From: Natrinema sp. SYSU A 869 | GTDB lineage: Archaea; Halobacteriota; Halobacteria; Halobacteriales; Natrialbaceae | Assembly (NCBI RefSeq): GCF_019879105.1 | Contig: NZ_CP082248.1 | Span: 558,001 to 622,000 of the forward strand | Length of the DNA: 64,000 nt | Direction: 5' to 3' | In this document: positions 6,668 through 12,222 of the stretch, piece after piece | Position numbering within the stretch: the first letter of the stretch is position 1 | How the letters are laid out: every line of letters starts with the position of its first letter | Made by a program: the position numbers and the translations under genes | The notes under the pieces: generated by a model | Told to the model about the DNA's origin: nothing | The model's database searches: none | Seen by the model: only the letters and a program-made list of their open reading frames with translations

Positions 6668-7609
6668 TCAACAGAGCCGTTCGAGAGTGTCGATTAGCTC
6701 TTGGGCCGTGTTGCTAATCCGGCCAAGCCGGTCAGTGATCGCCTCGGGATTGTCACCGTTCCACGCTGCAAGGTAGAACGCTGATCCACTCATATCCAGC
6801 TCGAAGTAGCGCCCCACGACGTACGCAACGGCTTCGGCTTCCAGCTCGCGTTTCGTCCGTTCGTCGCGATCGTCAACGTCGAAGTGGAGGATCGCGTGAG
6901 CGTACTCGTGGATGAGTGTCCCAGCGAGATCCGCTTGGTTGTCTCGATCTTTCACTTCGACTCGCGGGCGCATGGTCATCGGACAGCGTTGCTTGCAGAC
7001 TCCCTTCGCTTCCCCGTAGTTCCACTCGTCGGCCGGCACAATCTGTGCATCGACGTCCAACTGCTCGGCGCTCTCGAGGAGGGCCGGCACCAGATTACTG
7101 GCATCACCATATGCTTCGGTTTCGAGATCAGGAAGTGCCTCTCCGTCGGTCTGCGAGACATCGAAGACAGCGGTGGGTTTGAACCCGACAAGCCCTTTCG
7201 ACCACTTCTCGGGCGGCGTCTCGTCGTACTCACAATCACTATTTTCGTGGTACGACGGGGAGTTTCCGCATTCGGGACACTGTTTCGTGATGATCGGTGC
7301 CCAGATCCAGATCGCACTCTCACCTTCCTGGACGTGCCGGTCGAACTCGTTTGCCCACGTGTTGTACCCTGCAACCTGGGTTGCGTGGGGACACTGCTGT
7401 TTGATCAGGAGCGTATTTCGGTACGAGTAGTCGTGGAAGTGGCTCTGTACGTCGAGCCAGGCTTTGAACTCTTCGCTGGCCGCAGCGTCGTCGACGAGGT
7501 CCACGAGGTCGTCAACCCACGTTTCGATCGTACTGTTCATCTCGTCGCTGCGCGTCTCGGTGTCGGTGAACGAGGCTGCTTGCTCTGTAGTCACTGCCAT
7601 TGGAATCAC
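6668..7609 (-). CDS. ArdC-like protein with ImmA/IrrE-type metallopeptidase motif
   Basis: This 313-residue protein begins with an ArdC-like ssDNA-binding domain (about 25-190; WLDVQSHFHDYSYRNTLLI and AGYNTWANEFDRHV) interrupted by a four-Cys zinc insertion (CPEC through DCEY). The C-terminal third has the zinc-peptidase motif HEYAHAILHF (about 235) and a trailing Glu-rich helix (ELEAEAVAYVVGRYF), as in ImmA/IrrE proteases. ArdC proteins on conjugative elements protect incoming DNA from restriction. That role is inferred. Its leader carries the hairpin element shared with three small genes at 11.2-12.2 kb, pointing to common regulation. Confidence 0.85.
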   Translation of the reverse strand: MIPMAVTTEQAASFTDTETRSDEMNSTIETWVDDLVDLVDDAAASEEFKAWLDVQSHFHDYSYRNTLLIKQQCPHATQVAGYNTWANEFDRHVQEGESAIWIWAPIITKQCPECGNSPSYHENSDCEYDETPPEKWSKGLVGFKPTAVFDVSQTDGEALPDLETEAYGDASNLVPALLESAEQLDVDAQIVPADEWNYGEAKGVCKQRCPMTMRPRVEVKDRDNQADLAGTLIHEYAHAILHFDVDDRDERTKRELEAEAVAYVVGRYFELDMSGSAFYLAAWNGDNPEAITDRLGRISNTAQELIDTLERLC

Positions 7610-7638
7610 TTGTGTTGACGCTCTCGCCTGCTCGAAAG

Positions 7639-7669
7639 CCTCACCCCTCTCTGGGGTACAACAACACCA
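7639..7669 (-). promoter_or_regulatory. Hairpin leader element 1, upstream of the ArdC-like gene
   Basis: On the minus strand it reads GTGTTGTTG, then ACCCC-agag-aGGGGT as a hairpin, then GAGG. It lies 30 bases before the ATG at 7609. The same order (TGTTGTT, hairpin, purine-rich tract) recurs at 11283, 11903 and 12191. Confidence 0.6.
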
Positions 7670-7715
7670 CTCTCGTTACACACCTGATCTCGAGTGAAAA
7701 CGGCTCACGGGGGGA

Positions 7716-7990
7716 TGAAAACACTCCGTTCATCGACGATCTCCTCGAGTCGATTCTGCGTCCGATGCTCGAAGTAACAGTTGTACGAGCAGTACCCCCA
7801 GATCTCACCAGTATCGTACTCGGCTTAGATCGGGACGATCTGCCAGAGTACACGACGATCTACAAATCGTTCGACCGGCTGAAAATGTGGGTGTGGCGGG
7901 TGTTGCTGCGCTGAAACGCGCAGCAACGCCCGCAGTCGGGCACGCAGCTCTCGACAGCACGTTCTTCGACCGCCGCTCAGCCTCCTCATA
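7716..7990 (+). pseudogene. IS5-type transposase N-terminal remnant
   Basis: The frame contains FIDDLLESILRPMLEV, then YTTIYKSFDRLKMWVWRVLL, the typical start of haloarchaeal IS5-family transposases. It stops at 7912 and continues in another phase with GHAALDSTFFDRR (about 7938-7975), which normally follows directly. The remainder of the transposase is absent. It is a truncated and frameshifted relic. Confidence 0.6.
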
Positions 7991-8425
7991 CTCAGTCGAT
8001 CACATCGGATTAGGATGAGTGTCTGCTCGGAGAAGGTGTGATATCCACCCAATCAGACAGCGAGCTAAAAGAGGAGCACCTGCTTAATTTTGTCGTCAAC
8101 AGTCTTAATAAGGAACTTTCGTTGGATCTCGGAGAGAACGTAGAGGACTTCACGGAGTGGGTAATCCACACGTTGCTGGTTCCCCTCTCATGACGCGCCG
8201 GAAGACGGAGGCAAGAGCGAAAGCGGGACGAAGATAGAACCGAAGACGGTCTGAGCGGTCCCGATCGGATCGACTTGCAGTCCCGTCGAAATCAGTCAGT
8301 CTCACTGCCGGTCGCTGATACCGATTCGCCGGCGCGGACGAGAGACCTATAACTAAATGTACTTTATTAATGTGGTCCAGAAGGTTTTAATGTATTTCAT
8401 ATAATCCATATTCTGTCACAATACA
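7991..8425. other. Degenerate spacer, no confident gene
   Basis: No complete gene is visible. On the minus strand a 42-codon open stretch (8193 down to a stop at 8065; VDYPLREVLYVLSEIQRKFL) looks coding but has no start and is not recognised. AT-rich sequence at 8355-8420 (ctttattaatg, atataatcc) probably holds the promoter of the next gene. Confidence 0.4.
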
Positions 8426-9470
8426 ATGGATAATCGAAGAACGGTTCTCGAAGGAATGAGTGCTGCAGTCAGATTCGGACTGTCTCCGACGGTCGCTGGA
8501 CGTCAATCGAGACAGGGCAATGGCTCCAAGGAGAGCACGCGGGACAGCAAACCGCTATCCAGAGAGGATTTCAAAGTCGTCGGAACGAAGAAGACGAAGA
8601 CGACCTTCGAACCGGAGAGGATCACGATCGAGACGACCTACCGGAGCCCGGATCTGAAAAAGCGATATGGGATGACACCCCCGAAAATCACGGAAAAGGA
8701 TGTAATCGATCGGTCGGAGATCCCCCCCTGAGGAGGACGAGTATCCGGAGCGTGACGTCATCGTCAATACACAGCGGTGGGAATCGAACTACGCGAGAAA
8801 AGAAGAGTGGGAACAGCTCATAGAAGACCGGAGAACGGAATCTGGGACGGAATCAGGCGGTATCGGTATCCAGCACGACCATCCGGTAGACGACCAGGGA
8901 AATTGCGGTCGAGCAGTCTGGAACTACAGGAAAGTCGGCGACAACGGGTACGACGAATCGGCCCCGATAAATCTGCTCCTCTATGGAGTGGGTATGGAAG
9001 ACGTCGAACGCGTACTCGAAGACGACCACGGGTGGGACAATCTCGAGAATTACCGGATTCCGCGCGAGGGGAAACGGTATGCTTGGGATATGGACCGCGC
9101 GGACTTCGCCGGTCCTGACAACGAACCGTACGGCGAATACGGCGGCTGGGGGACCGCAGAAGCCGGCCTCACCGGACGTCATCACGTGCGATGTTATGAA
9201 CTGGAGCCGGGGATTATCTCCGTACAGGCCCACGAAGACGGAAACTGGGATATCTGGACACAGGAACACGACGTGGTCTCCTATCAGAGTACGCGAGACA
9301 AGATGATCGATATCTTCACGAACAACTGGCCGTATCTCCGGAACACTGGATGGGTCGCCTCAGGGCCGGACGGCTGGGGTAACGACGGCGCGGACGACAA
9401 CCACGACGGAAAAGCGGTGCGACTCGAGGCAGGGTCGAATCCCCCAAAAGAAATCGACAGGAACTGTTGA
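8426..9470 (+). pseudogene. Secreted-type protein of unknown family, split at a C7 tract
   Basis: Two frames join into one protein of about 348 residues. The first 101 residues (MDNRRTVLEGMSAAV..., twin-Arg-like start) end at a stop just after a run of seven C at about 8722-8728. The next frame then reads on without interruption as EEDEYPERDVIVNTQRWESN and continues to 9470. Removing one C restores a single frame. The C-terminal half is rich in Trp, Gly and acidic residues (WGNDGADDNHDGK), typical of an exported haloarchaeal protein. The break may be phase variation, mutation or a sequencing error. The family was not recognised. Confidence 0.6.
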
Positions 9471-9758
9471 AATGATCGGTCTCCGAATTTCGGTCCGAGC
9501 CGATCGGCTGGGACTGCGCAACTCATACGCTATCCCCTCCTGTATACATTCGAACCCTGTTATCACTAATTCAGAAAATAATTATCTAATGACAATTAAC
9601 CAAACTAGATCCGATAGTCAGATGTACACGATACGGAACGCTCTCGATAGAGGTCCAGCAGTGCGATACCGTCGACCGACGAAACTGGGATCCCGTTCCA
9701 CTCAAGGGATTTCAGTGACGACCGTCGGAGAGAACGCTCCCATGGAGGTTCCGTACCG

Positions 9759-10589
9759 ATGAACCGCCCCAGTGTAACGTCGATAGCGGTCGGGACCGGT
9801 GGTGGGATTGCGAGCGCAATCGCCGTCGGAGCCCTGTTCTCGTTGTTCGACTACCACGTCGTCATGTCGGCGACCGAGTGGTGGACGCTCCTGCCAGGGG
9901 CGTTCGTGCTCGGGTTCGTGACGGTGGCGCTCTCGGTTCACACTGGGCTCGTCTCTCCCGGCGGTGGATTCTTGGCCCTCCTTGTGGCCGTAGTGTACAC
10001 CGAACTAACGACGTCCCCCCCGCGGGCGGTCGTCGAACGCGGTGACGACGTGATCGTTGATGGGTCGTTCCACGCGTTGTCCTACGCCGAGACGTGGTAC
10101 GTCTGGCTCGCACTCCTGCTCGTCGCCGGTGTCGCCGAGTTCGCGATTCGACGCGGGTACAGTCTCGAGGACGGTCGGTTGCGAAATCTCCCGACCCTCC
10201 CGCTTTCGCGAACCGACCTGTGGCTCGTCGTTGTCGGCTGTAGCGGTGCGGTCGGCCTTGCGACGATGATCCTCCTCGTTCGAGGGGTACTGTGGGAGAC
10301 CGCCTCCGGATACGGAATCGGCTTCGTCGCAGCCGCCGTCGCGACCGTAGTCCCGCTCGCGGCGTTGCTCTCCTACGGGATCGTCTCCCCGTTCGTTCTG
10401 TACGGCTGGCTCGTCATGGCCACCCTGCATACGGAAGCGTTCACAGCGCCCGATAGTGGACTCCACATCCCCATTCTCGGCGTTTCGTCGATCGGGTTCG
10501 TAATCGTCGCGGGACTCGAACTACTAGTTCGTTCCCGACTTCGGGGGTGGGACGGTGGCAGGTTCGCGAGCGCCGTCAGTCAGGAGTGA
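9759..10589 (+). CDS. Polytopic membrane protein of unknown function
   Basis: This 276-residue protein has about seven or eight hydrophobic segments (roughly 10-32, 42-60, 63-85, 115-133, 158-178, 190-215, 218-232 and 240-260) separated by short polar loops and an acidic loop at 85-110. The ATG at 9759 is preceded by ggaggtt as a ribosome-binding site. There are no charged catalytic motifs and no recognised transporter signature. Base composition is high in GC and matches typical chromosomal haloarchaeal genes rather than its AT-rich neighbours. Confidence 0.7.
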   Translation: MNRPSVTSIAVGTGGGIASAIAVGALFSLFDYHVVMSATEWWTLLPGAFVLGFVTVALSVHTGLVSPGGGFLALLVAVVYTELTTSPPRAVVERGDDVIVDGSFHALSYAETWYVWLALLLVAGVAEFAIRRGYSLEDGRLRNLPTLPLSRTDLWLVVVGCSGAVGLATMILLVRGVLWETASGYGIGFVAAAVATVVPLAALLSYGIVSPFVLYGWLVMATLHTEAFTAPDSGLHIPILGVSSIGFVIVAGLELLVRSRLRGWDGGRFASAVSQE

Positions 10590-10789
10590 CCCCTGCGCGC
10601 GGATACGCAGGGGTGCAGTGAGGGAGTGAACCGTGTTCAGTACCGTTCACCCGTCGCTGGACATCCCGGCCCGCCGACGACGGGATTCCCGTGGCCGCGG
10701 TCGACGTCTCCGAAGTCGTGGCTCTACGTCGGCCACGCCTCCGCCACCCGCCGATAGGAGTAGTCCGCACCGCGTCGTGTGTTCGCGCG

Positions 10790-10997
10790 TCATCCGTCAC
10801 CTCGCTCGAGGGACCGCAGTCGGTCGATCCGCTCCGCAGTCGGCGGATGCGTGTCGGGGAAGATATCGGTGCTGACGAGTTCCTTCGAGCCGAACGCGCG
10901 CTCCTCTAACGGGTCAAGATAGAGCGCTTCGGCACCGCCGTCGAGCTTCCGGAAGCCGCGGTCGGGGAGTTCGGGCATCGTCCTATCGATTTTCTCG
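10790..10997 (-). pseudogene. C-terminal fragment of an M48 (HtpX-like) peptidase
   Basis: About 68 codons read ALEKIDRTMPELPDRGFRKL, then GGAEALYLDPLE, then STDIFPDTHPPTAERIDRLR. The last box is the conserved C-terminal signature of HtpX-type membrane zinc proteases of the M48 family. The catalytic HExxH part is absent, and upstream the frame runs into an unrelated small gene, so this is a truncated remnant. Confidence 0.6.
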
Positions 10998-11192
10998 AGA
11001 GCGGTCGCGATCGTCCCCCTCCGGCCCGGCAATGGCGATCGACTCGCTGAGGTCCTCGTCGTCCACGTCCTCGGGCTTCGGATTGACACTCCTGCTACGC
11101 AGGAACTCCTCGAGAGTCGGCTCTGGTGGGTGGATCTCGGGCTCGGGGTGTCGCGGCTCTCCAGCGAGCCAGGCGGCGCGATCGCGGTTCAT
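10983..11192 (-). CDS. Small acidic plasmid protein
   Basis: This 69-residue protein starts MNRDRAAWLAGEPRHPEPEI and is rich in Pro, Glu and Asp, with no recognised domain. Its ATG overlaps the stop of the preceding 27-codon frame as TGATG, implying coupled translation. The ribosome-binding-like ggtgggaact lies just upstream and resembles the one before the zinc-ribbon gene at 11578. Its C-terminal end may be altered at the junction with the peptidase remnant. Confidence 0.5.
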   Translation of the reverse strand: MNRDRAAWLAGEPRHPEPEIHPPEPTLEEFLRSRSVNPKPEDVDDEDLSESIAIAGPEGDDRDRSRENR

Positions 11193-11275
11193 CAGTTCCC
11201 ACCCCCGTTTTCATGGACGGTCTTGGGGTGTTCGGTTCGCTGTGTGGTCTGTTCTTGCACTTTGGATCGTCTCAT
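11192..11275 (-). CDS. 27-residue leader peptide, translationally coupled
   Basis: ATG at 11275 follows the hairpin leader element directly (GGAGGGAAAAACA then ATG). The peptide is basic and polar (MRRSKVQEQTTQRTEHPKTV...). Its TGA stop overlaps the next ATG in a TGATG junction. The position after a shared leader and the stop-start overlap support real translation. No family is recognised. Confidence 0.45.
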   Translation of the reverse strand: MRRSKVQEQTTQRTEHPKTVHENGGGN

Positions 11276-11282
11276 TGTTTTT

Positions 11283-11312
11283 CCCTCCCCCCCCGGGGAC
11301 GAACAACACCAC
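11283..11312 (-). promoter_or_regulatory. Hairpin leader element 2
   Basis: On the minus strand it reads GTGTTGTTCGT, then CCCC directly followed by GGGGGGGG and AGGG, with the start codon eight bases later. The arms pair as CCCC/GGGG. It is the same arrangement as the elements at 7639, 11903 and 12191. Confidence 0.55.
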
Positions 11313-11338
11313 CGCGCGATGCACGTGATCCCGGCGTC

Positions 11339-11578
11339 TCACGCGCTTGGAGGACGGAACAGGCACCGCTCGCACTCGAGAAACTGCTCTCCCTCTCCAT
11401 TGAATCGTCCAATCAATACTGCTGCCTCGCAGCGGGGACACGGATCACCGTGGGTGTAGCCGCCTTTGACTGGTGGATCAGGAGTCGTGACGGTCAGCGC
11501 GCGTATGCGTGCTCTTGCGCTCGCCCGTGTGACTCTCTGTTCGTCAGTCTGAGGGGCATCCTGGGAAGAATCAGTCAC
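11339..11578 (-). CDS. Small zinc-ribbon protein
   Basis: This 79-residue protein has a basic, Arg-rich N-terminal half (RVTRASARARIRAL) and a C-terminal ribbon CPRC...CERC followed by RPPSA. The GTG at 11578 is chosen because ggtgggaaca precedes it at the right distance, as for the gene at 11192. A GTG three codons upstream is also possible. It lies 28 bases after the 11607-11894 gene and is probably in the same transcript. The function is unknown. Confidence 0.6.
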   Translation of the reverse strand: MTDSSQDAPQTDEQRVTRASARARIRALTVTTPDPPVKGGYTHGDPCPRCEAAVLIGRFNGEGEQFLECERCLFRPPSA

Positions 11579-11606
11579 TGTTCCCACCGGGCGAGTCGAA
11601 GAGGAA

Positions 11607-11894
11607 CTAGGAGCTGGCGTCCTCGCCCGTCAGCGTCAGCTGGTCGTCGGCCGTCTCCGCGAACAGCGATGTCTGGTCGGTATTGTCGCCTTCCGAGTAC
11701 CGAACTTCGACGCGGTCGTCGACGCCGAACTCGCTGGCTACGGGGCGATCGAGTCGTGCTTCGACCTCGCGATGGCTGACGTCAGCACCGAAATCCTCGA
11801 GCGAGGTCGCAACGCTTTCTTCGGTCGGTTCGAGTCCACCGTCAGCGGTGAACGCTGTCTGCTGTTGGATCGTGATCTCGGGTCGATCTGTCAT
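11607..11894 (-). CDS. Small acidic plasmid protein
   Basis: This 95-residue protein starts MTDRPEITIQQQTAFTADGG. It has an acidic helix region, then beta-rich VDDRVEVRYSEGDNTDQTSL. The ATG at 11894 is chosen over an upstream one because the shared hairpin leader element ends eight bases before it. No family is recognised. It is the head of a probable three- or four-gene unit with the zinc-ribbon and 27-residue genes downstream. Confidence 0.6.
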   Translation of the reverse strand: MTDRPEITIQQQTAFTADGGLEPTEESVATSLEDFGADVSHREVEARLDRPVASEFGVDDRVEVRYSEGDNTDQTSLFAETADDQLTLTGEDASS

Positions 11895-11902
11895 CTGTAA
11901 AA

Positions 11903-11936
11903 CCCTCCACCCCTCTCGAAGGGTGCAAACAACACT
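11903..11936 (-). promoter_or_regulatory. Hairpin leader element 3
   Basis: On the minus strand it reads GTGTTGTTTG, CACCC-ttcgaga-GGGGTG hairpin, GGAGGG, TTTTACAG, then the ATG at 11894. This is the cleanest copy: the purine tract is a good ribosome-binding site and its 5' part lies in the hairpin arm. Confidence 0.6.
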
Positions 11937-11971
11937 CCCAGCGATCGCAGGCACCGTGATCGGTGGACCAG

Positions 11972-12182
11972 TCACGACTCCTCGCGAAGTTCTTCAGCTC
12001 GCTGGGCTAGCAGTTTGAGGATCGGAAGGCGGTGTTGGTGCTGATTTTCGTAGGCGACACACGACTGAAGTGTCTCCATGTCGGTGATCGTCGCGATTCC
12101 CGCATCAATGATCCGGGGATTCGGTGACTCGAGGCGCTGTGCTGGCGTCAGTGGCTCGTCAGTCTGGTCGGTATCTGCCCTT
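11972..12182 (-). pseudogene. Small helical plasmid protein, start codon lost
   Basis: The frame reads ADTDQTDEPLTPAQRLESPN, then RIIDAGIATITDMETL, then a helical tail LKLLAQRAEELREES. By alignment with leader element 3, the start should be at 12180-12182, but the codon there is AGG rather than ATG. An in-frame stop lies just upstream, and the first ATG is at 12077-12079. Either the start is mutated or a short protein is made. The family is not named. Confidence 0.45.
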
Positions 12183-12190
12183 GTAGACTC

Positions 12191-12222
12191 CTCTCACTCC
12201 TCTGAGGAGCAAACAACACCAC
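12191..12222 (-). promoter_or_regulatory. Hairpin leader element 4
   Basis: On the minus strand it reads GTGTTGTTTG, then the perfect palindrome CTCCTCAGAGGAG, then TGAGAGGAG and TCTACA. It aligns base for base with element 3 up to the start position of the downstream frame. Confidence 0.6.

Follow-up and report, generated by a model that had tools for sequence, protein, structure and literature searches.

What does a short sequence element do for the genes behind it when it stands four times on one strand of haloarchaeal DNA, each time directly ahead of a gene? The question is raised by a stretch of 64,000 nucleotides (nt) from Natrinema sp. SYSU A 869 (contig NZ_CP082248.1, positions 558,001 to 622,000), referred to here in its full length as the window, for which an original prediction had described four minus-strand leaders composed of a box, a short hairpin and a purine-rich tract. 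All four are present in the window sequence, as members of a large family of short mRNA leaders with folded structure that is found on haloarchaeal plasmids and is apparently new to the literature. With a probability of roughly 0.6, the element would act in cis in the mRNAs of haloarchaeal mobile replicons, as a leader controlling how translation of the following gene is initiated.

The predicted single hairpin is present, but the anatomy is richer, with three alternative helices in two classes of leader. The element consists, in order, of a single-stranded box (GUUNNUYG), a C-rich arm 1, a G-rich arm 2 (GAGGGGUG; given as GAGGGGTG in the cutting of the arms) and a G-rich arm 3, with a further downstream arm 4 in long leaders. 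Arm 1 can pair with either arm 2 or arm 3 (helices 1:2 and 1:3), and arm 3 can also pair with arm 4 (helix 3:4). The start codon lies at +32 to +41 in the short class and at +47 to +79 in the long class. The copies in the window are as follows, with bit scores from a covariance model (R1).

12186..12222, minus strand: leader copy 1, 25.2 bits, parts read from the sequence; prefix GTGGT, box GTTGTTTG (12217-12210), C-arm CTCCTC (12209-12204), G-arm 1 GAGGAG (12202-12197) and G-arm 2/Shine-Dalgarno (SD) tract GAGGAG (12193-12188); in the computed fold the C-arm is paired with G-arm 2
11899..11936, minus strand: leader copy 2, 28.9 bits (the best of the window), with computed folds; box GTTGTTTG (11933-11926), C-arm CACCCTT, G-arm 1 AGGGGTG and G-arm 2 with SD GGAGGGT; short class, start codon at +39
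11278..11312, minus strand: leader copy 3, 18.7 bits, with computed fold; box GTTGTTCG (11307-11300), CCCC/GGGG hairpin, GGGGAGGG tract and ATG at 11274
7617..7670, minus strand: leader copy 4, long class, 20.8 bits, with computed fold; box GTTGTTGT (7665-7658), helix 1:2 CCCC/GGGG and helix 3:4 of GCTTTCG (7639-7633) with CGAGAGC (7626-7620); whole-leader fold of -25.6 kcal/mol with helices 1:2 and 3:4 both formed

These are the top four R1 matches of the window, under a model built mostly from copies outside it but including close relatives of the four. The box consensus first proposed, GTGTTGTT(T/C)G, holds for three copies and fails for the copy before the ArdC-like gene (copy 4), which reads GTGTTGTTGTA. 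Within the window GTGTTGTT occurs only at these four leaders (4 sites against 1.55 expected); 6 of 100 shuffled windows contain at least 4 sites, so the bare 8-mer count is weak evidence taken alone. The 10-mer was rejected as evidence, being enriched yet common throughout haloarchaeal genomes. It is recurrence, in the strand split among related loci and in the ArdC homologues described below, that places the pattern far beyond chance.

The 95-amino-acid (aa) gene behind copy 2 has 70 homologous loci in other Halobacteria, and in the leaders of these homologues the parts follow one order, in two versions: GTGGTGTTGTT-N-CACCCT-CGAG-AGGGRTGGAGGGTTTCACAG-ATG in Natrinema, Natrialba, Saliphagus and Natronococcus and, elsewhere, GTTTTTCG or GTTTGTCG, GTCTGTCG and GTTTATCG, with arms such as GAGCCTC...GAGGCTC. 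In the same loci the element also stands upstream of many other genes. A covariance model from 36 copies gave 452 matches in 1.14 Mb (E up to 1), and an nhmmer search of the 70 related loci together with the window gave 406 matches on the plus strand versus 4 on the minus strand, the loci having been turned so that the seed gene defined the plus strand and the window itself lying on the minus strand. Of 145 Halobacteria genomes, the covariance model matched 107, the richest having 35 copies; among about 101 genomes of the phylum outside Halobacteria, 7 contained one to four matches each, all weak. Circularity was avoided in a gene-first test in which ArdC homologues, present in 58 of 97 Halobacteria genomes, were fetched by protein alone. 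The element lay 28-56 nt upstream of the protein match in all 30 sampled ArdC loci, and 79 of the 80 element matches at ArdC loci were on the strand of the gene. The possibility that the element would not recur outside the window is therefore refuted: it precedes ardC-like, zinc-ribbon and many other plasmid genes.

Its distribution within genomes follows particular replicons. The genome of the window has 32 matches with E up to 0.15. Every one lies on either the 891-kb or the 881-kb replicon; the third contig, which makes up the remaining 3.9 Mb, has none at this threshold. The 165-kb plasmid NZ_CP101455 carries 22 copies on a single strand in one 36-kb cluster at 114-150 kb, and the remainder (roughly 115 kb searched) gave one chance-level match (E 0.92). 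Plasmid pHS2 of Halobacterium salinarum R1 has 10-11 copies. Strict patterns matched nothing in viruses; three looser viral matches score weakly, the one examined lying in repetitive, coding-like sequence, and the 95-aa protein has a single distant homologue in a virus, which lacks a good element.

Compensatory change in the stem, which had been anticipated for a single helix, extends to all three. In a swap test on 122 nonredundant copies, in which each copy's own arms were compared with arms exchanged between copies, coevolution was found for 1:3 (p=3e-8), 3:4 (p=2.5e-12) and 1:2 (p=1e-4); the control pairings 1:4 and 2:4 were not significant, nor were pairings of the box or of upstream sequence or a general upstream hairpin. 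The box, conserved and paired with nothing, is thus suited to a bound factor, one of the possibilities raised in the original prediction. Helix 1:3 is strong in short leaders (rank 0.84, p=2e-5), where 3:4 is absent, and helix 3:4 is strong in long leaders (rank 0.79). Covariation in the model alignment was 0.35 for 1:3 versus 0.07-0.16 for slid helices. When G-U pairs were allowed, coevolution of 3:4 was essentially confined to the sense strand (Z of 1.37 on the sense versus 0.41 on the antisense strand, p=1.8e-6), which on this sequence evidence makes 3:4 a helix of the mRNA. Because its 5' arm lies inside the element, transcript starts downstream of the hairpin, an outcome that would have told against the proposed leaders, are unlikely in the long class. 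By computed energy 1:2 and 1:3 differ little, by no more than 3 kcal/mol in about half of the copies.

The position of the element points to initiation of translation. The median distance from the 3' end of the last arm to the start codon is 7 nt in short and 11 nt in long leaders, despite their differing lengths. Of 25 short leaders, 22 have a GGAGG-type SD (5-nt match) at 4-16 nt from the start codon, inside arm 3, so that the proposed overlap of a hairpin arm with the ribosome-binding tract stands for the short class. Among copies with a recognizable upstream open reading frame (ORF), 97 of 181 begin no more than 40 nt past its stop codon and are thus intercistronic. No TATA signal or AT peak was found upstream of the box, TATA-like words occurring there in less than 4% of copies. 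In the NZ_CP101455 cluster, element-bearing gaps are mostly about 49-170 nt; by hand inspection, most same-strand gaps of at least 49 nt in the cluster carry the element, and no same-strand neighbors on this plasmid less than about 40 nt apart do. Most of the element-bearing neighbors there neither overlap nor lie within about 20 nt of each other, the spacing expected for termination-reinitiation.

In the favored explanation, the leaders most likely set the translation level of each gene in long plasmid operons. In short leaders, where arm 3 carries the SD GGAGG, pairing 1:3 would hide the SD and pairing 1:2 would free it; in long leaders, helix 3:4 ends about 11 nt before the start codon. Each cistron would thereby be given its own ribosome entry point, with the box read by a protein or by the ribosome and the alternative pairings possibly working as a switch. 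In Haloferax, most transcripts lack a leader, and a distal gene of an operon usually overlaps its predecessor (PMC3986360); coupling is almost lost once the genes are about 20 nt apart (PMC10666635). Since element-bearing gaps exceed this stop-and-restart range, the genes behind them would need initiation of their own.

Several observations weigh against such a role. No trans factor was identified, and SD motifs in Haloferax 5' untranslated regions have been shown to be unused (PMC3986360). An SD at 4-16 nt is found in a minority of the 81 long leaders, most having no clear SD, and support for 1:3 in the long class is modest (p=0.0015). Helices 1:2 and 1:3 are strand-neutral in the strand test, which separates RNA from DNA for neither. 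Pairing 1:3 is itself part of R1, whose matches were used to build the hidden Markov model that collected the copies; folding energies apply to standard parameters at 37°C rather than to molar KCl; and RNAalifold on 25 ArdC leaders returned one small hairpin without covariation support.

A stronger form of the same explanation, compatible with it, is that a plasmid-encoded partner, an RNA-binding protein or a small RNA, attaches to the box and arm 1 and shifts the leader between 1:3 and 1:2 (with 3:4), so that one trans signal would turn on dozens of plasmid genes, for example after entry into a new cell. The conserved box without a pairing partner would suit such a switch, as would mutually exclusive helices that both coevolve with similar computed stability, and the divergence of the box between replicon groups within one genome (GTGTTGTT versus GTTTTTCG) fits a replicon-encoded partner. 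However, no regulator or complementary small RNA was found, constitutive use accounts for the same data and the long leaders give modest support to 1:3, leaving the switch plausible but somewhat short of probable. Archaeal Lsm proteins bind U-rich RNA, and the U-rich box adjoins hairpins between cistrons, so a nuclease or Lsm/SmAP1 might instead recognize the box and hairpins to cut or protect long plasmid transcripts, cutting being a way to yield translatable units. Such a role in processing or stability appears improbable, as constant spacing from the start codon and an SD within arm 3 point to initiation and the central positions of the box are not always U; no such motif appears in the available part of a SmAP1 study (PMC10134880).

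Control at the level of DNA would make the box an unusual promoter or operator read by plasmid TFB/TBP and the inverted repeats protein-binding sites. Plasmid TFB and TBP genes do occur within these clusters, box variants such as GTTTATCG look TATA-like and 1:3 and 1:2 are strand-neutral, but the arms change sequence freely so long as they still pair, unlike in an operator, and 3:4, which uses the same arm 3, is a sense-strand RNA helix. Together with the absence of an upstream TATA or AT peak and the many copies only 10-20 nt past a stop codon, this makes a DNA element quite improbable. The chances are slighter by far for a single-stranded DNA (ssDNA) element serving conjugative entry in the manner of leading-region ssDNA promoters: ArdC-bearing clusters lie on large plasmids typed MPF_T and use one strand throughout each cluster, but a promoter duplex would need longer stems than the 5-8 bp present, G-U coevolution of 3:4 is on the sense strand and the copies take the orientation of their gene cluster, with both orientations occurring on the one contig C2.

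Translational leaders thus being the favored reading, the genes that they would serve in the window are the following.

6671..7600, minus strand: ArdC-like gene behind copy 4, with weak matches to ArdcN (E 0.0026) and Peptidase_M78 (E 0.0013), both short of the Pfam cut-off
11191..11274, minus strand: 27-codon ORF behind copy 3, conserved as MRRSK(V/A)QEQ... in locus L019
11607..11894, minus strand: conserved plasmid protein of 95 aa behind copy 2, function unknown, the source of the 70 homologous loci; no Pfam match and a poor AlphaFold model (pLDDT 63)
11972..12181, minus strand: small gene of a 73-aa protein family behind copy 1, with homologues at L018, L019 and L047

The small genes of the window are partly degenerate. 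The gene behind copy 1 has AGG at 12179-12181 where its homologues read ATG (compare CACAATGGCAGAT in L019), so that the spacing of this copy to a start is inferred; the gene may be a recent pseudogene or may use another start. The L019 counterpart of the ORF behind copy 3 likewise ends after 27 aa. Fragments follow behind copy 3 at 10790-11192, and the end of ORF 10790-11089 resembles, by eye only, the C terminus of an M48-type peptidase.

Beyond the window, the haloarchaeal plasmid genes preceded by the element come from over 20 families unrelated to one another, the downstream ORFs falling into 41 clusters, of which 21 have at least two members. They encode ArdC-like, DUF6166, DUF6610, DUF6735 and TFB-type zinc-ribbon proteins, SWIM-type and other small proteins and the 95-aa and 73-aa families of the window, along with one TnpB (RNA-guided nuclease family) gene, at L089:1547-2853, with the element 65 nt upstream of its annotated start. 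The gene clusters are largely collinear between plasmids; integron-like cassette sites (attC) were ruled out on this conservation of gene order. Adjacent ardC-like/TFB-like pairs, each gene with its own element, recur scattered over two replicons of the genome of the window (G000), C1 and C2 (L107, L108, L110 and L111), and some copies are broken. In the family of 272-aa SWIM-like genes, an inverted repeat, TTAACCAACA...TGTTGGTTAA, stands directly before the box or nearby, and it is also found near some other elements; sites are at L112:1750-1812, L074:9255-9298, L069:12600-12640 and L078:5870-5930. For these units the repeat might function as a DNA operator or as part of a promoter.

Haloarchaea are textbook cases of leaderless, overlap-coupled translation. 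A class-wide family of leaders with hundreds of copies, linked to mobile replicons and placed so as to serve initiation, would reveal a second mode of initiation in these archaea and would show plasmids controlling a whole gene set through one RNA element. The leaders mark long uncharacterized plasmid clusters (ArdC, TFB, DUF6166, DUF6610 and DUF6735) as a single expression unit and offer directly testable constructs. A bolder and rather doubtful extension is a private translation regulon common to haloarchaeal plasmids and integrated elements, in which a structured RNA entry element, read by a factor of the mobile elements, stands before nearly every gene of a long operon; if so, translation of mobile genes would be independent of that of the leaderless coupled mRNAs of the host, and perhaps different in manner.

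The claim that no element of this form had been described was borne out by the sources searched. No Rfam 15 family matches, the sole hit being a chance-level Guanidine-III match that scores 17.3 of 36 bits and lies outside the elements, and a full-text literature search returned no description, its reach mostly excluding subscription journals, so that absence there is not proof. We know of no leader that recurs ahead of most genes in a plasmid cluster and does so across an entire class of archaea. Among known systems, conjugative leading-region ssDNA promoters share hairpins repeated before antirestriction genes, whereas the element is placed at the level of RNA, has short stems, lies inside gene clusters and tracks the gene strand. 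Attenuators of the trp type (1:2, 2:3, 3:4 logic) share overlapping segments with mutually exclusive partners; in the element it is arm 1 that is shared by arms 2 and 3, there is no leader peptide and, because no U-run follows arm 4 in the leaders read, there is no transcription terminator. Haloarchaeal intercistronic SD motifs and termination-reinitiation (PMC3986360, PMC6728339, PMC10666635) have in common an SD-like purine tract before distal genes, but host genes overlap or nearly do so, whereas the element occupies a gap of about 50-170 nt. Structured leaders that hide an SD are known as a kind, and bacterial translational attenuators and SD-sequestering leaders (riboswitches, thermometers and ribosomal protein leaders) share with the element the SD-hiding hairpin, alternative pairing and fixed start spacing; in the short class, helix 1:3 pairs the SD arm with an upstream anti-SD arm through compensatory changes, as in those systems. 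Unlike them, the element precedes many unrelated families, is mostly intercistronic, lies on mobile replicons of one archaeal class and combines a conserved U-rich box with no known ligand.

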